Part shown: positions 273-8,004 of the stretch, in pieces
Layout: every line of letters starts with the position of its first letter
How positions within the stretch are numbered: position 1 is the stretch's first letter
Assembly (NCBI RefSeq): GCF_902459645.1
Contig: NZ_CABPSK010000001.1
Span: 1,860,001-1,924,000 of the forward strand
Length of the DNA stretch: 64,000 nt
Direction of reading: 5' to 3'
Source: Pandoraea pneumonica
GTDB taxonomy: Bacteria; Pseudomonadota; Gammaproteobacteria; Burkholderiales; Burkholderiaceae
Translations under genes and position numbers: made by a program
Notes under the pieces: model-generated
Seen by the model: the letters and a program-made list of their open reading frames with translations, nothing else
Databases searched by the model: none
Told to the model about the DNA's origin: nothing

Positions 273-1325
273 ATGAAAACCTGGCACAAGGTGGCTGGCG
301 CCGCCGCATTGGGCGCGGCAACGCTCGCAACGACGGCCCATGCGCAGTCGAGCGTGAGCTTCTACGGTTTGGCCGACGCCTATGTCGGCTCGGTGAAGAA
401 CCCGGGCGGGCAAGCCGCGGTCGTGCAGCAAGGCGGCGGCATGACCACGTCGTATTGGGGCATGGCCGGTACGGAAGATCTGGGCGGCGGCAACAGCGCG
501 CTCTTCGTGCTCGAGAGCTATTTCCAGCCGAACAACGGCACCTACGGCCGTTTTGCTGGCGACAGCTTCTTCTCGCGCAACGCCTACGTCGGCCTGTCGA
601 ACACCACCGCCGGTACGCTGCGGCTCGGACGCATCACCACGCCGCTGTATCTGGCGACGATCCAGTTCAACCCGTTCAACAACTCGTACACGTTCTCGCC
701 GATGATCTTCCACACCTACAAGGGTCTGGGGACGCAAGGCGTGGTGGGCGACTCGGCATGGAACAACGCCATCGCGTACACGTCGCCGAGTTATGCAGGC
801 TTGGCCGGCACGCTGATCTACGCCACGGGTAACAGCGCAACGGACCACAGCGCCAAGAAGTGGGGCGCCGCCCTCACGTATGGCAACGGCCCGTTCGGCG
901 TGGCGGTGAACTATCAATACGTGAACTTCAGCAACACCGCGGGAGACTTCGGTACGCAGTTGCCTGGCGTGACGGGGCTTGCCAACCAGAACACGGCACA
1001 GATCGGCCTCTCGTACGACTTCACCGTCGTGAAGCTGTTTGCGCAGTACATGCTCGTCGCCAGTCAGGCGGCCAGTGGCAATTTCCACAGCAACACGGGG
1101 CAGTTCGGCGCCTCGGTGCCGCTCGGTCGCGGCAGCGTGCTCGCGTCGGTCGCCTACACCGGCTCGAACGGCTCGGGCGACAACCAGCGCCGCACCACGT
1201 GGGCACTCGGCTACGACTACCCGCTCTCCAAGCGCACCGACATTTACGCCGCCTACAAGTACGATCACATGAGCGACTTGTCGACCGGCCAGACGTACGG
1301 CGCCGGCCTGCGAATGAAGTTCTAA
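273..1325 (+). CDS. Gram-negative porin (Burkholderia OmpC-like)
   Basis: This is an outer-membrane general diffusion porin of about 350 residues, the usual size for the beta-proteobacterial trimeric porin family. A signal peptide covers about residues 1-25 and ends THAQ, after which the mature protein begins SSVSFYGLADAYVG, the typical first beta strand. The C-terminus ends in Phe (GLRMKF), the outer-membrane assembly signal. Two ATGs are adjacent (270 and 273); the second gives better spacing from GAGGG at 264-268. It opens a cluster with a transporter and pyrimidine-ring enzymes and shares a palindromic operator with them, so it probably admits their substrate across the outer membrane. 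The substrate itself cannot be read from the sequence. Confidence 0.9.
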   Translation: MKTWHKVAGAAALGAATLATTAHAQSSVSFYGLADAYVGSVKNPGGQAAVVQQGGGMTTSYWGMAGTEDLGGGNSALFVLESYFQPNNGTYGRFAGDSFFSRNAYVGLSNTTAGTLRLGRITTPLYLATIQFNPFNNSYTFSPMIFHTYKGLGTQGVVGDSAWNNAIAYTSPSYAGLAGTLIYATGNSATDHSAKKWGAALTYGNGPFGVAVNYQYVNFSNTAGDFGTQLPGVTGLANQNTAQIGLSYDFTVVKLFAQYMLVASQAASGNFHSNTGQFGASVPLGRGSVLASVAYTGSNGSGDNQRRTTWALGYDYPLSKRTDIYAAYKYDHMSDLSTGQTYGAGLRMKF

Positions 1326-1467
1326 GCCTTATCAGACGTTATCGGGTGTGCCCCCGCACACTCGCCCTGCGCGACGGTATCCCCCGCTACAACCGCCGTC
1401 GCGCAGTCCTTCGACTCAGGGTTTGACCCAATAATTTTCACCTTGCCGGACCCCTTGGGTTCGTTTA

Positions 1468-1483
1468 GTCTAAATATTTAGAC
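1468..1483. promoter_or_regulatory. 16-bp perfect palindromic operator, copy 2
   Basis: GTCTAAATATTTAGAC is its own reverse complement. It ends only about 15 bp before the start of the small gene that follows, so a bound protein would block transcription or initiation. It is identical to copy 3 at 1847-1862. Confidence 0.7.
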
Positions 1484-1497
1484 AAATGGAGCGCATG

Positions 1498-1821
1498 ATG
1501 GATCTGAAGCTTGCTTGTGCCTGGTTGCAGCGCGACACGGTTGGTTTGTCCGACATCGAAGACTTCGCCGAGCGCTGCCTGAACGCGTCGCGCACCCCCA
1601 CGCGTGAATCGGCTGCGCTGCTGTTGCTCGCGCAGGCGGCACAGGCTTTTGCAGAAAGGCAGTCCGGCATTGCGACGAGCAGCGAAACGTTGCAGGCGTT
1701 TCTCACCCGCAGCAAAGCCTCCGCCACCATGCTGCGCGAGGCCGCCGACGCGTCCGACGCCCACTTTCTCGCCACCCTCAACGACTTCGCTGCGCAGTTC
1801 ACCAGCGATGTCTATGTGTGA
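1498..1821 (+). CDS. hypothetical protein between two operators
   Basis: A small, soluble, Ala-rich and mostly helical protein of about 107 residues with no recognised domain, signal peptide or membrane segment. Three in-frame ATGs occur (1486, 1495, 1498); GGAG at 1488-1491 is spaced correctly only for 1498, giving a start MDLKLACAWL. The gene sits between palindromic operators 2 and 3 and appears to be transcribed separately from the transporter operon that follows. It is probably a member of the same regulon; no function can be assigned. Confidence 0.6.
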   Translation: MDLKLACAWLQRDTVGLSDIEDFAERCLNASRTPTRESAALLLLAQAAQAFAERQSGIATSSETLQAFLTRSKASATMLREAADASDAHFLATLNDFAAQFTSDVYV

Positions 1822-1846
1822 GTCGAGGCATTTTTTTCTCGCATTC

Positions 1847-1862
1847 GTCTAAATATTTAGAC
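1847..1862. promoter_or_regulatory. 16-bp perfect palindromic operator, copy 3 (upstream of MFS-pyrK-pyrD)
   Basis: GTCTAAATATTTAGAC is identical to copy 2. It lies 90 bp upstream of the MFS transporter, just after the end of the preceding small gene, where the promoter of the transporter/dehydrogenase/amidohydrolase operon would be expected. Confidence 0.7.
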
Positions 1863-1951
1863 AATTTGACGATGACTGGCGGTAGTGGCGGCGGCGCGGC
1901 CTTGCGCTTGCAGGCGCATTCGATCACTCGCCGCCCCCACAGGACACGACC

Positions 1952-3211
1952 ATGGAAGTCAACCTGAACACCCCGAGCGCACAGCGCACGGCTGCCGCAC
2001 CGTCCGACGCCGTGACGCCTTACGCATGGAAAGCGCTCGCGGGCTCCGCCATCGGCTACGCGATGGACGGATTCGATCTGTTGATTCTCGGCTTCATGCT
2101 GCCCGCGATCACCGCTGGTCTGTCGCTCACGCCGGGGCAGGCAGGGGCACTCGTCACGTGGACACTGATCGGGGCGGTGGCGGGGGGCATCATTTTCGGT
2201 GCGCTCTCCGATCGCTATGGCCGCGTGCGCATGCTGACGTGGACGATTCTGCTGTTTGCCGTTTTCACGGGGTTGTGCGCCTTTGCACAGGGCTTCTGGG
2301 ACTTGCTGGCCTATCGCACCATCGCTGGCATCGGCCTGGGCGGCGAGTTCGGCATTGGCATGGCCCTCGCCGCTGAGGCATGGCCTGCCGCCAAGCGTGC
2401 ACGGGTGTCGTCGTATGTGGCGCTCGGCTGGCAAACGGGCGTACTCGCTGCGGCGCTGCTCACGCCAATGCTGCTGATTCACATCGGCTGGCGCGGCATG
2501 TTTCTCGTCGGTGTGCTGCCCGCGCTGGTGGCGTGGGTGCTTCGCAACAAGCTTCACGAGCCGGAAGTCTTCGTGCGCCGCGCGGACAACGCGTCGACGG
2601 CCAACCGCTCGAACGCCTTCCGTCTGCTCGTGAAAGACGCTCGCACCACGCGGGTGAGTCTGGGCATCGTGATCCTCTGCTCGGTTCAGAACTTTGGCTA
2701 CTACGGGATCATGATCTGGCTGCCGACGTTCCTCTCGCAGAAGCTCGGCTTCTCGTTGACGAAGTCGGGTCTGTGGACTGCCGCCACGGTCGTCGGAATG
2801 ATGTTCGGCGTGTGGGCCTTCGGCCAGTTGGCCGACCGCATCGGACGCCGCCCGACGTTCCTGCTCTATCAGGCGGGGGCCGTGGTGATGGTGCTCGTCT
2901 ACGCGCAGTTGACCGACCCGACTGTGATGCTGTTTGCCGGTGCGCTCATGGGCATGTTCGTCAACGGCATGGTCGGCGGCTATGGCACGCTGATGTCCGA
3001 AGCCTACCCAACTGCCGCGCGTGCCACTGCGCAGAACGTGCTGTGGAACATCGGCCGCGCCATCGGCGGACTCGGCCCGCTCGTCGTCGGTGCACTCGCC
3101 GTGCGCTACTCCTTCCAGATCGCCATCGCCCTGCTCGCGAGCCTTTATGTGCTCGACATGCTCGCCACGCGCTTTCTGATTCCCGAACTCAAGGGCACCG
3201 AACTCGAATGA
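1952..3211 (+). CDS. MFS transporter, AAHS/SHS-like organic acid:H+ symporter
   Basis: A 419-residue inner-membrane transporter with about 12 membrane segments. The first segment carries GYAMDGFDLLILGF, the D-G-F/Y-D signature of aromatic-acid and sialate/lactate proton symporters, and the loop after segment 2 has GALSDRYGRVRM, the MFS loop motif. The family imports small carboxylates. The gene is first in an operon: its stop overlaps the start of the pyrK-like gene in an ATGA, and a dihydroorotate dehydrogenase and a carbamoyl-amino-acid hydrolase follow. Orotate, dihydroorotate or a related cyclic ureide acid is therefore the inferred cargo. Operator copy 3 lies just upstream. Confidence 0.85.
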   Translation: MEVNLNTPSAQRTAAAPSDAVTPYAWKALAGSAIGYAMDGFDLLILGFMLPAITAGLSLTPGQAGALVTWTLIGAVAGGIIFGALSDRYGRVRMLTWTILLFAVFTGLCAFAQGFWDLLAYRTIAGIGLGGEFGIGMALAAEAWPAAKRARVSSYVALGWQTGVLAAALLTPMLLIHIGWRGMFLVGVLPALVAWVLRNKLHEPEVFVRRADNASTANRSNAFRLLVKDARTTRVSLGIVILCSVQNFGYYGIMIWLPTFLSQKLGFSLTKSGLWTAATVVGMMFGVWAFGQLADRIGRRPTFLLYQAGAVVMVLVYAQLTDPTVMLFAGALMGMFVNGMVGGYGTLMSEAYPTAARATAQNVLWNIGRAIGGLGPLVVGALAVRYSFQIAIALLASLYVLDMLATRFLIPELKGTELE

Positions 3212-4089
3212 TTCTCGACGCACCCTGCCACGCCTCCACTGTGGCCAGCGTGGCTACCGTAGCCACCGTAGCCACCCATGGCTGCCGCGTGCTCACGCAC
3301 CGTGCGGTGAATGCCCGCTATCGCTATCTGCAACTGCAAGCCGATGCGCCGCTCGCGCACACGACACGCCCCGGTCAGTTCTATCAGCTCAAGTGCCCGG
3401 TGACGGACCAAGAAGCGCCGTTTCTGCTGCGTCCGATGAGCGTGTATGGCACCGGCCCCGAACCCGGCGTTATCGAATTTCTCTACAACGTCACCGGCGT
3501 CGGCACGCGCGCCCTCGCCTCACTGGCCGAAGGGGCGACGCTCGACATCGTCGGTCCGCTCGGCAACACGTTCACGCTCGATACGGCATGGCAACGCGTG
3601 ATGGTCGTGGCGCGTGGCGTCGGGCTGGCCACGATGGCCCCGCTCGTCCAACGCGCTGCGGCAGCCGGTATCCGGCTCACCGTGGTGATGTCGGCGCGTA
3701 GCGAAGCCGATCTCATGCGCGACGAATTCTTGCGCTCAGGTAACGCCCGTGAACTGGCTGACGTGCACTGCGTATTCGACAGCGATGGCTCGTCGTCGGT
3801 CGAGGCAGTCGAAGCCCGCATACGTGCGCTGCTCGCCGCAGCGCCGCACGACGCTGTCTACACCTGTGGCTCGCACCGGCTTCTGATGCTTTTGCAGCGG
3901 GTCGTCGCAGAACACCCGCAGATGGTTGCGGAAGTGGCGATGGAGCAGCGTATGGCGTGCGGCATGGGCGTTTGCCTGTCGTGCGTGCGCCTGTTCGATT
4001 GCGACGGCGACAAACAATTTTTGCGCGTGTGCCGCGAAGGCCCCGTGTTTCCGATTCGCGATGTCATCGGGGAGGTGGACTTTGGCTGA
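3208..4089 (+). CDS. pyrK: dihydroorotate dehydrogenase electron-transfer subunit (PyrK-like, FAD/2Fe-2S)
   Basis: A 293-residue FNR-type flavoprotein that would pass electrons between the class 1B dihydroorotate dehydrogenase encoded next door and NAD(H). FLLRPMSVYG (about 72-81) is the FAD-binding RPxS element, ARGVGLATM (about 135-143) matches the pyridine-nucleotide loop, and Cys251, Cys256, Cys259 and Cys275 (CX4CX2CX15C) form the C-terminal 2Fe-2S cluster site. The ATG overlaps the transporter stop (ATGA). The N-terminus has a short VASVATVATVAT repeat encoded by near-tandem 9-bp units. Most beta-proteobacteria make pyrimidines with a quinone-linked class 2 PyrD, which has no such subunit, so this copy is more likely catabolic. 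Confidence 0.85.
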   Translation: MILDAPCHASTVASVATVATVATHGCRVLTHRAVNARYRYLQLQADAPLAHTTRPGQFYQLKCPVTDQEAPFLLRPMSVYGTGPEPGVIEFLYNVTGVGTRALASLAEGATLDIVGPLGNTFTLDTAWQRVMVVARGVGLATMAPLVQRAAAAGIRLTVVMSARSEADLMRDEFLRSGNARELADVHCVFDSDGSSSVEAVEARIRALLAAAPHDAVYTCGSHRLLMLLQRVVAEHPQMVAEVAMEQRMACGMGVCLSCVRLFDCDGDKQFLRVCREGPVFPIRDVIGEVDFG

Positions 4090-5071
4090 TCTTCACTTGC
4101 AGGCGCTGCGAGCATCCCATGAGCCCGATCTGAGCGTTCGCATCGGCGCGCTCACGCTGCGCAACCCGGTCATGCCCGCTTCCGGTTGCTTCGCCATCGA
4201 ATACCGCGAGGCGCTCGATCTCAATCGGCTCGGCGCGCTGGTCATCAAGAGCGTGTCGCCCGCCACGCGCGCCGGTAACCCGACGCCGCGTGTGGCCGAA
4301 ACGCCCAGCGGCATGCTCAACTCCATCGGCATTCCGAGCAAGGGGCTCGATGCCTACCTGCGCGACGTGCTGCCGCCCTACACGCGGTTCGACACGCCCG
4401 TGGTGGTATCGGTCTCCGCCGACACCGCCGAATCGTTCGCCGAAGCCTGCGAGCGATTGTCATTGCCCGAAGTTGCCGCCATCGAGGCCAACATCTCGTG
4501 CCCGAATCTCGAAGCCGACGGCATGGCCTTCGCGATGCTCCCTGAGACGACATACAAGGCCGTGAGCGCGATCCGGCGGCGCACGAAGCATCCGTTGTGG
4601 GTCAAGCTCACGCCCAACGCCGGGCAGATCGCGCTGATCGCGCGCGCGGCGGAAGACGCCGGAGCCGACGCCATCGTCATGGGCAACACCGTCCTCGGCA
4701 TGGCCATCGACGTGCACACGCGCCGCCCCAAACTCGGCAACGTGATGGGCGGCCTGTCAGGCCCGGCGATCAAACCGCTGGCCGTTCGGCTCGTGCATCA
4801 ATGCCATCGCGCGGTGCGCATTCCGATCATCGGCTGCGGCGGCATCGAGACGGCAGACGATGCCGTTGAATTCATGCTGGCCGGGGCCACCGCCGTGCAG
4901 GTGGGCACGGCCTCGTTCCGCGATCCCGCCGCGATGGGCCACATCGTCGACGGGCTCGCCGCCTATTGCGCGCGGCACGAAATCGAGAAGCTCGCAGCGC
5001 TCACGGGGGCCGTAGCGCTCGACGCGCAACTCACCGACCGTTGGTTGCGCTTCGCACAGCAGTCCGGGTGA
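4082..5071 (+). CDS. pyrD: dihydroorotate dehydrogenase, class 1B type (PyrD-like)
   Basis: An FMN TIM-barrel enzyme interconverting dihydroorotate and orotate. It belongs to class 1B: NISCPN (Cys140 as the active-site base), NTVLGMAID, the C-terminal CGGIE phosphate-binding loop, and PyrK encoded next to it. The NPG of typical family members in the orotate loop is altered (LNSIGIPSKG, about 80-88), a change that could shift substrate preference. The start is a TTG at 4082, six bases after GGAGG at 4071-4075; it overlaps the pyrK stop by 8 bp. Upstream in-frame ATGs would overlap pyrK much further and are not needed. A dihydropyrimidine dehydrogenase activity cannot be excluded, but PreA/PreT partners look different from PyrK. 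Confidence 0.88.
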   Translation: MADLHLQALRASHEPDLSVRIGALTLRNPVMPASGCFAIEYREALDLNRLGALVIKSVSPATRAGNPTPRVAETPSGMLNSIGIPSKGLDAYLRDVLPPYTRFDTPVVVSVSADTAESFAEACERLSLPEVAAIEANISCPNLEADGMAFAMLPETTYKAVSAIRRRTKHPLWVKLTPNAGQIALIARAAEDAGADAIVMGNTVLGMAIDVHTRRPKLGNVMGGLSGPAIKPLAVRLVHQCHRAVRIPIIGCGGIETADDAVEFMLAGATAVQVGTASFRDPAAMGHIVDGLAAYCARHEIEKLAALTGAVALDAQLTDRWLRFAQQSG

Positions 5072-5184
5072 TAGGGACACAGCGCTCGCTTTCGCGACAC
5101 GTCGCGACGGTGAGCGTGGTTCGCAGGCAGTGAATGCGGCTTGCTTCCCCTCCCCTTGTTTATGTCTTTGTAGAAAACACGCTC

Positions 5185-6456
5185 ATGAGTCTTACCGCGC
5201 TGGCCTCGCTGGCCGATCAACTTTTCAACGACCTGCGCCGCCTCGGCGACGACGGTGTCGGTGTCTCCCGCGACAGCTATGGCGCAGGCGAGAACGCGGC
5301 AGCGTCGTATCTGACCGAATGGGCCGGTCATCAGGGACTCGCCGTCACGCGCGACCGTGCGGCCAATTTGATTTTCTCGCTGCCCGATGGAGCGGGTGCG
5401 TCAGGGCCGCGCAACGATACGCCCGCCACGTGGATCGGCTCGCACCTCGACTCCGTGCCGCAAGGCGGCAACTACGACGGCATGGCGGGCATCGTTGCGG
5501 GCCTGCTGTGTCTTGTCGAACAGCAGCGCAGCGGCCGTCCAACATCGACGCCGGTGCGCGTGCTCGCGCTGCGCGGTGAAGAAAGCGCCTGGTTCGGCAA
5601 AGCGTATATGGGCTCAAGTGCCCTGTTCGGCAAACTTAGCGACGCGGATCTGGCGATGAAACATCGCACGCACGGCCGCACGCTGGCCGAATGCATGGCC
5701 GAGGCAGGTGCCGATATCGATGCCATTCGCGACGGCGCGATGCTCTTCGATGTGTCGCGCGCCAAAGCCTGGCTGGAATTACACATCGAGCAGGGGCCGG
5801 TGATGATCGCCCGCGAGATGCCAGTGGCCATCGTGCCGGGCATTCGCGGCAACGTGCGCCATAACCGCGTGTCGTGTGTGGGCGAAGCGGGCCATTCCGG
5901 TGCGGTGCCGCGCTGGCTGCGGCACGACGCGATGTTTGCGGTGGCCGATCTCATCACGCGGCTCGACGAACACTGGCGCGCATTGCTCGAACGCGGCATC
6001 GATCTCGTCGTGACCACGGGCATCGTCGGCACCGACCCTGCCGAACACGCGATCTCGCGCATTCCGGGGCGTGTCGATTTCAGTCTGGAAGTGCGCAGCC
6101 AAAGCGCCGATACGCTCGACGTGTTCTACGAGCTAATGCGCACCGAGTGCCGCGCCATCGAGCGTGACCGCGGTGTGCAGTTCGTCTTCGACCGGCGGCT
6201 CGCTTCGGCGCCCGCCATCATGGATACGCATGTGTCGTCGTTGCTCGTCGACGCCTGCCGCGCACTCGATTTGCCGCAAGAGCGCGTACCGAGCGGTGCC
6301 GGTCACGACGCCGCGATCTTCGCCAATGCAGGCATTCCCAGCGGGATGGTGTTCGTGCGCAACGCCAACGGCTCGCACAATCCGCACGAAGCCATGGACA
6401 TCGATGACTTCATGCGCGGCGTGCAAGTGCTCGAATCGGTGACGCATCGTCTGTGA
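5185..6456 (+). CDS. Zn-dependent amidohydrolase, M20 family (N-carbamoyl-L-amino acid hydrolase / allantoate amidohydrolase type)
   Basis: A cytosolic binuclear-metal enzyme of the HyuC/AllC/ureidosuccinase family that removes the carbamoyl group from N-carbamoyl amino acids. Metal ligands are visible in order: GSHLDSVPQGG, NYDG, RGEESAWFG, LELHIEQGP and, near the C-terminus, SHNPHEAM. ATG 5185 (MSLTALASLADQ) is preferred to an upstream start at 5134 because family members begin about there. It is last in the cluster, 113 bp after pyrD. Next to a dihydroorotate dehydrogenase the natural candidate substrate is N-carbamoyl-L-aspartate (ureidosuccinate), giving aspartate, ammonia and CO2. That assignment is an inference from context. 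Confidence 0.85.
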   Translation: MSLTALASLADQLFNDLRRLGDDGVGVSRDSYGAGENAAASYLTEWAGHQGLAVTRDRAANLIFSLPDGAGASGPRNDTPATWIGSHLDSVPQGGNYDGMAGIVAGLLCLVEQQRSGRPTSTPVRVLALRGEESAWFGKAYMGSSALFGKLSDADLAMKHRTHGRTLAECMAEAGADIDAIRDGAMLFDVSRAKAWLELHIEQGPVMIAREMPVAIVPGIRGNVRHNRVSCVGEAGHSGAVPRWLRHDAMFAVADLITRLDEHWRALLERGIDLVVTTGIVGTDPAEHAISRIPGRVDFSLEVRSQSADTLDVFYELMRTECRAIERDRGVQFVFDRRLASAPAIMDTHVSSLLVDACRALDLPQERVPSGAGHDAAIFANAGIPSGMVFVRNANGSHNPHEAMDIDDFMRGVQVLESVTHRL

Positions 6457-6552: not shown

Positions 6553-8004
6553 TTACGGTGCCAGCGCGATCACCTCGGCCACGGCGGCGGTCAGCTTCTT
6601 GGCGTATGGCACGTGCAGGAATTCATTCGGACCGTGGGCGTTCGACTTCGGACCGAGCACACCGCACACCATGAACTGCGCGCTCGGGAACCCCGCTTGC
6701 AGCGTGTTCATCAGCGGAATCGTGCCGCCCTGCCCGATGAACGCGACGTCCTCGCCGTAGTGGCGTTGCGACGCCGTATTGAGCGCCGTCGACAGCCAAG
6801 GGGCCACTTCCGGGGCATCCCAGCCGGATGCCGACGCATCGGCCTTGAACGTCACTTTCGCGTTGTAGGGCGGATCGAGTTCGAGCAGCGATTTGAGTTC
6901 GTCGACGGCTTGCGCGGCATCGATGAGCGGCGGTAGTCGCAGCGAGAGTTTGAAGGCTGTGCGCGGACGCAGCACGTTGCCCGCATCGGCCAACGCGGGC
7001 AGACCTGCGGCGCCGGTGACCGACAGCGACGGACGCCACGTCGAATTCAACAGCGCTTCCTTCGGATCGGTGGTGGTCGGCAGCACCGACAGGCCGTCCT
7101 GACCGCAGGCCCACGGCATCTTCTTCCAAACGTCGTCGCCAAGAATCGCAGCCGTGGCTTCCGCCTCTTTCAAGCGTTGCAGCGGAATCGGGCTGTGAAA
7201 GCCCTTGGGCAACACATTGCCGCTGCCTGCATCTTCCAGCCGTTCGAACAGTTGGCGCATGATGCGGAAGCTCGACGGCGCGATACCGCCGTAGCCGCCC
7301 GAGTGAATGCCTTCGTCGAGCACCTGCACTTCCAGACTGCCCGAGATCATGCCGCGCAATGACGTGGTCAGCCACAACTGATCGTAGTTGCCTGCGCCCG
7401 AATCGAGACAGACGACGAGACTCACCTTGCCCAAGCGCTCGCGCAACGCATCGACATAAGGCAGCAAGTCGTAGCTGCCCGACTCTTCGCACGTTTCGAC
7501 CAGCCCCACGCAACGCGGACGCTCCACACCTTGCGCGTCGAGCGCCGCGAGGGCCGTCACGCTGGCATAGATCGCGTAGCCATCGTCGGCACCGCCGCGA
7601 CCGTAGAGCTTGCCGTCTTCGAACTTCGGCGTCCACGGGCCGAGGTCTTTGCGCCAGCCGTCGAATTCAGGTTGTTTATCCAAATGGCCGTACAGCACGA
7701 TCGTCTCGTCGCTGCCCGAGCGCGTGGCCGGGGCTTCGAAGAAGATCACGGGCGTGCGGCCTTCGAGGCGGATGACTTCGAGCTTGAGCCCCTTGACCGG
7801 CTGGCGCTCGGCCCATTGCGCGGCGTCGCGCACCACGCGGTCGATGTAACCGTTGCGCGCCCAGTCGGCATCGAAGCCCGGGCTTTTGGCGGGTACTGCG
7901 ATGTAGTCGGTCAGCGCGTGAAGAATTTCATCGTTCCATTTGCGTTCGACGAATTCGCGCAGGGCGGCCGTGTCGAGCGACGGCGAGGTGACGGTTTCGT
8001 TCAT
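6553..8004 (-). CDS. M20 family dipeptidase (carnosinase/CNDP-like)
   Basis: A 483-residue cytosolic metallopeptidase of the M20 dipeptidase branch. The metal-binding and catalytic elements are YGHLDKQPE (about 105-113), GRGGADDGYA (about 135-144), TCEESGS (about 170-176) and the C-terminal NAHGPNEF. The insertion around IHSGGYGG (about 235-242) marks the dimerisation/lid domain of this group. The start at 8004 has GAGGA six bases upstream. It is convergent with the preceding amidohydrolase and shares its terminator, so it is a separate transcription unit. It probably hydrolyses dipeptides; the exact substrate is not predictable. Confidence 0.88.
   Translation of the reverse strand: MNETVTSPSLDTAALREFVERKWNDEILHALTDYIAVPAKSPGFDADWARNGYIDRVVRDAAQWAERQPVKGLKLEVIRLEGRTPVIFFEAPATRSGSDETIVLYGHLDKQPEFDGWRKDLGPWTPKFEDGKLYGRGGADDGYAIYASVTALAALDAQGVERPRCVGLVETCEESGSYDLLPYVDALRERLGKVSLVVCLDSGAGNYDQLWLTTSLRGMISGSLEVQVLDEGIHSGGYGGIAPSSFRIMRQLFERLEDAGSGNVLPKGFHSPIPLQRLKEAEATAAILGDDVWKKMPWACGQDGLSVLPTTTDPKEALLNSTWRPSLSVTGAAGLPALADAGNVLRPRTAFKLSLRLPPLIDAAQAVDELKSLLELDPPYNAKVTFKADASASGWDAPEVAPWLSTALNTASQRHYGEDVAFIGQGGTIPLMNTLQAGFPSAQFMVCGVLGPKSNAHGPNEFLHVPYAKKLTAAVAEVIALAP

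Follow-up and report, generated by a model that had tools for sequence, protein, structure and literature searches.

The window considered here is a stretch of 64,000 nucleotides from Pandoraea pneumonica, whose first base is position 1860001 of contig C1 (NZ_CABPSK010000001.1) in a 5.85-Mb assembly. Near its start lies one co-oriented unit, running from a porin gene through an amidohydrolase gene, that probably serves the degradation of orotate. A preliminary description, made from the DNA letters, had listed a porin, a major facilitator superfamily (MFS) symporter, PyrK-like and class 1B PyrD-like subunits, and a carbamoyl-amino-acid amidohydrolase, all on one strand and with tight overlaps from the MFS gene through pyrD. 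All five genes lie where it had placed them on the forward strand. The overlaps amount to 4 bases between MFS and pyrK (ATGA at 3208) and 8 bases between pyrK and pyrD. To these five can be added a gene for a 111-amino-acid protein within the unit, three palindromic putative operators, and a divergent XRE regulator.

To collect related loci, named genomes were scanned using nine aligned PyrD orthologues, with two conserved peptides as the search key. The best 80 of 174 relatives, ranked by PyrD similarity, are used for comparison, and a gene was counted as present when tblastn gave a match at E 1e-8 over at least a quarter of the query. The 80 loci come from Pandoraea (15 loci), Cupriavidus, Paraburkholderia, Caballeronia, Burkholderia, Variovorax, Pusillimonas, Pseudacidovorax, Castellaniella, Bosea, Bradyrhizobium, Mesorhizobium, Pseudomonas gingeri, Leclercia, one member of the Alicyclobacillaceae, and others. 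Strains of Cupriavidus necator and Paraburkholderia phenoliruptrix have the locus (L101, L106).

The reductase pair and the amidohydrolase

The PyrD class 1B-like subunit (4082-5071, forward strand, TTG start; PF01180, 250.5 bits against a cut-off of 27) scores above the curated class 1B families NF005574 (368.7 vs 269) and TIGR01037 (312.3 vs 270). Aligned with Lactococcus PyrDB (1ep1), it has the active-site cysteine in an NxSCPN motif as well as the orotate contacts. Residues K56, N80, N137, C140, N142, N202 and T203 are each conserved in all, or all but one, of the 81 cluster sequences; we take this lysine, the asparagines, the cysteine and the threonine to be the contacts. Its electron-transfer partner (3208-4089, forward strand) carries the 2Fe-2S domain PF10418 (48.6 vs 23.9), and the cluster cysteines C251, C256, C259 and C275, aligned to 1ep1_B, are found in at least 95% of the 81. 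The subunit is called PyrK-like because it scores below the cut-offs of all four NCBIfam PyrK equivalog models (123.8 vs 314, 122.8 vs 219, 121.8 vs 270 and 105.5 vs 224).

The last gene of the unit encodes an M20-type hydantoinase/carbamoylase amidase (5185-6456, forward strand, with a longer frame from 5134). It exceeds the cut-off of the hydantoinase/carbamoylase amidase model TIGR01879 (260.4 vs 204) and falls below every narrower model, including all NCBIfam allantoate amidohydrolase models (best 386 vs 399). H87, D98, E132, E133, H200 and H398, presumably the metal ligands, are kept in at least 95% of the 81 sequences, and the motif R221-x-N223-x-R225 is present in all 80 readable members. 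The genome holds two paralogues at 31% identity, plus one marginal match. Both paralogues lack R221 and N223, and one has an arginine at 225; the five solved relatives aligned with the hydrolase likewise lack R221 and N223, three of them having the arginine at 225. The pattern suggests that R221 may read the side-chain carboxylate of carbamoyl-aspartate, and the enzyme is, from the neighbouring genes in relatives, a gene candidate for ureidosuccinase (EC 3.5.1.7), the N-carbamoyl-aspartate hydrolase. Two loci read by eye (L168 and L170) combine an ABC amino-acid-type transporter, a hydrolase homologue with R-x-N-x-R, the small protein and a distant XRE gene, a set that may serve to import and use a carbamoyl amino acid.

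Adjacent PyrK/PyrD homologues of a second type occur in other genomes of the same bacterial family (L063-L069) and differ from the cluster pair by N80F and T203A, found in all seven. Identity to the cluster proteins is 50-56% for PyrD and, in the six where the PyrK frame is unsplit, 43-47% for PyrK. Reading four of the seven loci by eye showed asparaginase-like, EthD-like, maleate-isomerase-like and Rieske genes, each in one to three, and MFS or TetR genes also stand beside the pairs there. The type-2 loci probably encode a degradation pathway for a different N-heterocycle, and N80 and T203 offer a means of separating drifted paralogues from PyrD of the orotate type. The possibility of such drift, and the fact that the window's hydrolase passes only the broad TIGR01879 model, would fit a cluster that degrades some other hydantoin- or ureido-type compound with PyrKD drifted to a different ring. 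The cluster PyrD, however, keeps the contacts that the type-2 paralogues have lost, and dihydroorotase, orotate phosphoribosyltransferase (OPRT) and aspartase are among the neighbours in related loci; another ring as substrate is hardly credible.

Transport, regulation and a small protein

The MFS symporter (1952-3211, forward strand) comes near but stays under the cut-off of the aromatic acid/H+ symport family TIGR00895 (349.9 vs 418.55 bits), and is proposed as the orotate importer. The outer-membrane porin (start at 270 or 273, end at 1325, forward strand; Porin_4, 172.9 bits vs 27) is the probable route of substrate entry through the outer membrane.

The palindrome GTCTA-N6-TAGAC occurs in three exact copies at the promoters of the cluster, and there is one other in the 5.8-Mb genome. 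Putative operator 1 (GTCTATTTTTTTAGAC, 111-126) lies in the divergent intergenic region between the XRE and porin genes, operator 2 (GTCTAAATATTTAGAC, 1468-1483) directly 5' of the small gene, and operator 3 (again GTCTAAATATTTAGAC, 1847-1862) 89 bases 5' of the MFS start. Among the 15 Pandoraea loci, operator 1 is exact in seven and has one mismatch in eight, operator 2 is exact and in the same place in all, and the half-sites of operator 3 are exact in all. The XRE gene (L003, 17039-17953) is divergent from the porin gene, with a putative TTG start that lies outside the window, 47 bases ahead of its first base. Its product has an XRE helix-turn-helix (PF13560, 49.4 vs 27; PF01381, 44.2 vs 23) and a C-terminal part with a phospholipase D (PLD)-like fold (a PLD/TrmB-like domain). 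The motif HxKx4D, catalytic in phospholipase D and related nucleases, is found in none of 36 aligned regulators.

Copies of the palindrome are also seen 0.8-1.8 kb past the hydrolase, exact in L105 and L106 and with one mismatch in the Burkholderia loci L124, L127 and L128. In L105 (13076-16796) the palindrome precedes an operon of a Rieske oxygenase, a DASS-type transporter and a reductase that adjoins the orotate locus, and a Rieske gene was likewise read in L077-L079. This arrangement suggests that strains of the L105 type feed a modified substrate into the pathway. It could also be taken to mean that the natural substrate in general is a modified (e.g., methylated) orotate, first converted by another enzyme, with the core cluster degrading the product. 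The frames read next to the cluster in this genome, however, included no evident Rieske gene, and the orotate contacts of PyrD are unchanged, so that for this organism a modified orotate seems very unlikely as the starting compound.

The small gene (1486, or 1498, to 1821, forward strand) is an open frame between the porin and MFS genes; homologues outside Pandoraea begin at an ATG equivalent to 1498. A fold of five helices is predicted (predicted local distance difference test, pLDDT, 87.6), for which structure comparison gave no confident solved relative, and the protein has no Pfam or NCBIfam assignment. An iterated profile joins the Pandoraea type to the other lineages, with 65 open frames spread over 64 of the 82 loci examined (62 of the 80 from named genomes and two from plasmids), though this profile was built from locus-linked members and favours the recovery of such copies. 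A PyrK orthologue (at least 383 bits) is present in 40 of 299 genomes of the same family, and 39 of the 40 also have the small protein, the exception being genome G295. Within the genus, 25 genomes have both and seven have neither. In six genomes the small protein occurs in the absence of such a PyrK orthologue, and each time it lies near a homologue of the MFS (3), hydrolase (2) or XRE (1) protein. In L169 and L171 the small protein adjoins an MFS homologue, with no matches to PyrKD or the hydrolase; this pair possibly serves orotate uptake alone.

An M20 dipeptidase-like gene (6553-8004, reverse strand) converges on the operon. It is probably not part of the unit, since among the 80 loci its matches are confined to the 15 from Pandoraea.

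Linked genes and the proposed pathway

Two proteins in the genome match PF01180, the cluster PyrD and one of the class 2 type about 376 kb away (C1:1488148). The latter, a frame of 365 amino acids, has the motif NISSPNT, with a serine in the motif. The preliminary description had held that a genome with no class 2 PyrD would make the cluster copy biosynthetic; a class 2 PyrD is present, and the cluster copy is therefore not the sole dihydroorotate dehydrogenase. Nor does it show the other mark of a biosynthetic pyr operon, linkage to further genes of uridine monophosphate (UMP) synthesis: no pyrC or pyrE match was obtained by tblastn, either in the 17 kb upstream or in the part of the window past 8.1 kb. 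The same description had expected the dihydroorotase to be supplied elsewhere, which fits the sole TIGR00856 match in the genome, at C2:1276504 on another contig. It had also proposed a search for a dihydroorotase gene next to the cluster: here none is encoded with the reductase and hydrolase, whereas some relatives have one. A dihydroorotase adjoins the hydrolase in six of 13 orthologous loci (L070-L082; the L070 match is in two pieces) and is present in 25 of the 80 related loci (PyrC in 23, another dihydroorotase type in 2).

In all 80 loci PyrD has homologues of PyrK and of the amidohydrolase next to it (in L162 the contig ends within the amidohydrolase), so the grouping is not due to chance. 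Matches to the XRE protein are found in 65, to the MFS protein in 63 and to the porin in 27. Aspartase accompanies the hydrolase in 23 loci; it and dihydroorotase are the enzymes after and before the carbamoyl-aspartate step. An OPRT-like gene is present in 47, and 59 of the 65 loci outside Pandoraea have at least one of these three enzymes. PyrC is the next match after the hydrolase in 22 loci, with a median gap of 51 bases. An internal control compared near and far flanks: of 97 accessory matches, 96 fall no more than 4 kb from the core (609 kb of flanking sequence) and one in the 547 kb farther out; a tblastn control gave none in the seven type-2 loci, in 56 kb of the window or in 17 kb upstream. 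Representative accessory proteins pass NCBIfam cut-offs for dihydroorotase (424 vs 293 and 695 vs 535) and aspartate ammonia-lyase (743 vs 510). A gene for what we take to be a SLOG/LOG-like nucleotide-binding protein recurs 3' of pyrC or the hydrolase in L075 and L077-L079 (read by eye).

The OPRT-like genes bear on another explanation, in which orotate or dihydroorotate would be taken up for pyrimidine salvage (by PyrE to UMP) and PyrKD would be a second biosynthetic dihydroorotate dehydrogenase, for example when the quinone-linked PyrD is limited. One of three OPRT-like proteins scanned passes the OPRT cut-off (248.3 vs 245), and an excerpt of PMC10395836 lists class 1B enzymes for Gram-positive and class 2 for Gram-negative bacteria. 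On the other side, the hydrolase homologue found in every locus would destroy the precursor, the aspartase fits breakdown, a class 2 PyrD is already at hand in the genome, and no OPRT match was obtained in the 15 Pandoraea loci. Salvage is thus an unlikely function for the cluster.

The earlier proposal that the cluster takes up a pyrimidine acid and degrades it to aspartate is supported at the sequence level by the class 2 PyrD elsewhere in the genome and by the dihydroorotase and aspartase of relatives. The unit would serve the catabolism of orotate (or dihydroorotate) as a substrate-induced operon. Orotate would cross the porin and then be imported by the MFS symporter. PyrK/PyrD, fed by NADH via FAD and a 2Fe-2S cluster, would reduce it to dihydroorotate, and the housekeeping PyrC (whose gene lies outside the unit here but within the operon in many relatives) would open the ring to give N-carbamoyl-aspartate. 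The M20 hydrolase would then irreversibly release aspartate, CO2 and ammonia. The XRE protein may bind the palindrome at the three promoters, probably repressing them until a pathway compound binds.

Several observations weigh against this pathway. Dihydroorotase, OPRT and aspartase are near the core in none of the 15 Pandoraea loci, so the middle step in the genus would rest on the housekeeping PyrC. The 80 loci are not independent, given the two peptides on which the search was keyed, the ranking by PyrD similarity, the choice of the best 80 of 174, and the 15 drawn from one genus. The PyrK-like subunit misses its equivalog cut-offs, and no operator at one mismatch or fewer is found in 43 of the 56 loci L107-L162, though most of them have an XRE match. 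The R-x-N-x-R motif is no proof of substrate because it also occurs in the L168 and L170 hydrolases, which have no PyrKD nearby; R225 is common to one in-genome paralogue and three of the five solved relatives. Two of the three OPRT-like proteins scanned fall short of the OPRT cut-off (239.7 and 222.5 vs 245), and OPRT in 47 loci also fits orotate salvage into UMP. With these points weighed, a catabolic locus leading from orotate through dihydroorotate and carbamoyl-aspartate to aspartate, with dihydroorotase acting in trans here, is given a probability of about 0.86.

The locus is patchily distributed, which suggests transfer: among 300 genomes surveyed in the order, a PyrD at E of 1e-90 or below is present in 13 (this one counted), and ten of these are 52-54% identical. 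PyrD relatives are also found on 90 plasmid records, 53 of them from Klebsiella. A 12.4-kb stretch with the MFS, PyrK-like, PyrD, hydrolase, pyrC, XRE and small genes together with lacY and lacZ is kept over at least 80% of its length in 49 records, all Klebsiella. Nine of the 49 are labelled as milk or mastitis milk, most others as human or wastewater or not at all. In one Klebsiella pneumoniae plasmid (NZ_CP050823.1, L164) the complete cassette has copper genes and an IS5-like transposase on one side and lacY-lacZ on the other. PyrD and PyrC are annotated with terms of pyrimidine biosynthesis in both plasmid regions that were inspected. Orotic acid is abundant in cow's milk. It is also named as a component of sheep milk in an excerpt of PMC12191573. 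The pairing with lacYZ suggests the use of milk as its ecological reason.

Comparison with known systems

Orotate breakdown is classical anaerobic chemistry. No gene-level account of it in aerobes turned up in the literature searched, at the level of listings. The pathway chemistry is known; what is new is an aerobic, probably regulated and sometimes plasmid-borne gene set, in which the XRE regulator with its PLD/TrmB-like domain and the five-helix protein are two pieces unnamed in the libraries used. What it offers for testing are candidates for ureidosuccinase and for the orotate importer, a regulator together with its likely operator, and a small-protein family that co-occurs with the pathway. 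A broader picture is more tentative, and we would give it slightly less than even odds: a widespread, horizontally spread aerobic orotate regulon in which the hydrolase is the gene of the ureidosuccinase of the 1950s, the XRE/PLD-like protein is a new orotate sensor, the five-helix protein is needed and acts with the sensor, importer or hydrolase, and the Klebsiella version with lacYZ is a module for the use of milk.

Clostridium (Zymobacterium) oroticum reportedly degrades orotate with a class 1B dihydroorotate dehydrogenase, a dihydroorotase and ureidosuccinase. The class 1B assignment of its dehydrogenase is given in the excerpt of PMC10395836. The same three chemical steps are proposed here, and the reductase is of the same type, PyrD with an NAD-linked PyrK partner. 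The present locus type differs in its Gram-negative host, here also possessing a class 2 PyrD, in having its own transporter, porin, XRE regulator and small protein, and, in Pandoraea, in a dihydroorotase encoded outside the operon.

In the 1960s, Taylor and co-workers are said to have described a degradative, inducible, pyridine-nucleotide-linked dihydroorotate dehydrogenase in aerobic bacteria; we know of no genes assigned to it. Such aerobes would share with P. pneumonica two functionally different dihydroorotate dehydrogenases, one of them degradative, and the locus is a gene-level candidate for the latter. Reductive pyrimidine catabolism, carried out by PydA/PreTA, PydB and PydC, likewise consists of ring reduction, ring opening and hydrolysis of a carbamoyl amino acid, and its solved beta-alanine synthases are related to the hydrolase of the window. 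In contrast to that pathway, the reductase here is of the orotate type rather than a dihydropyrimidine dehydrogenase, and the proposed product is aspartate, not beta-alanine.

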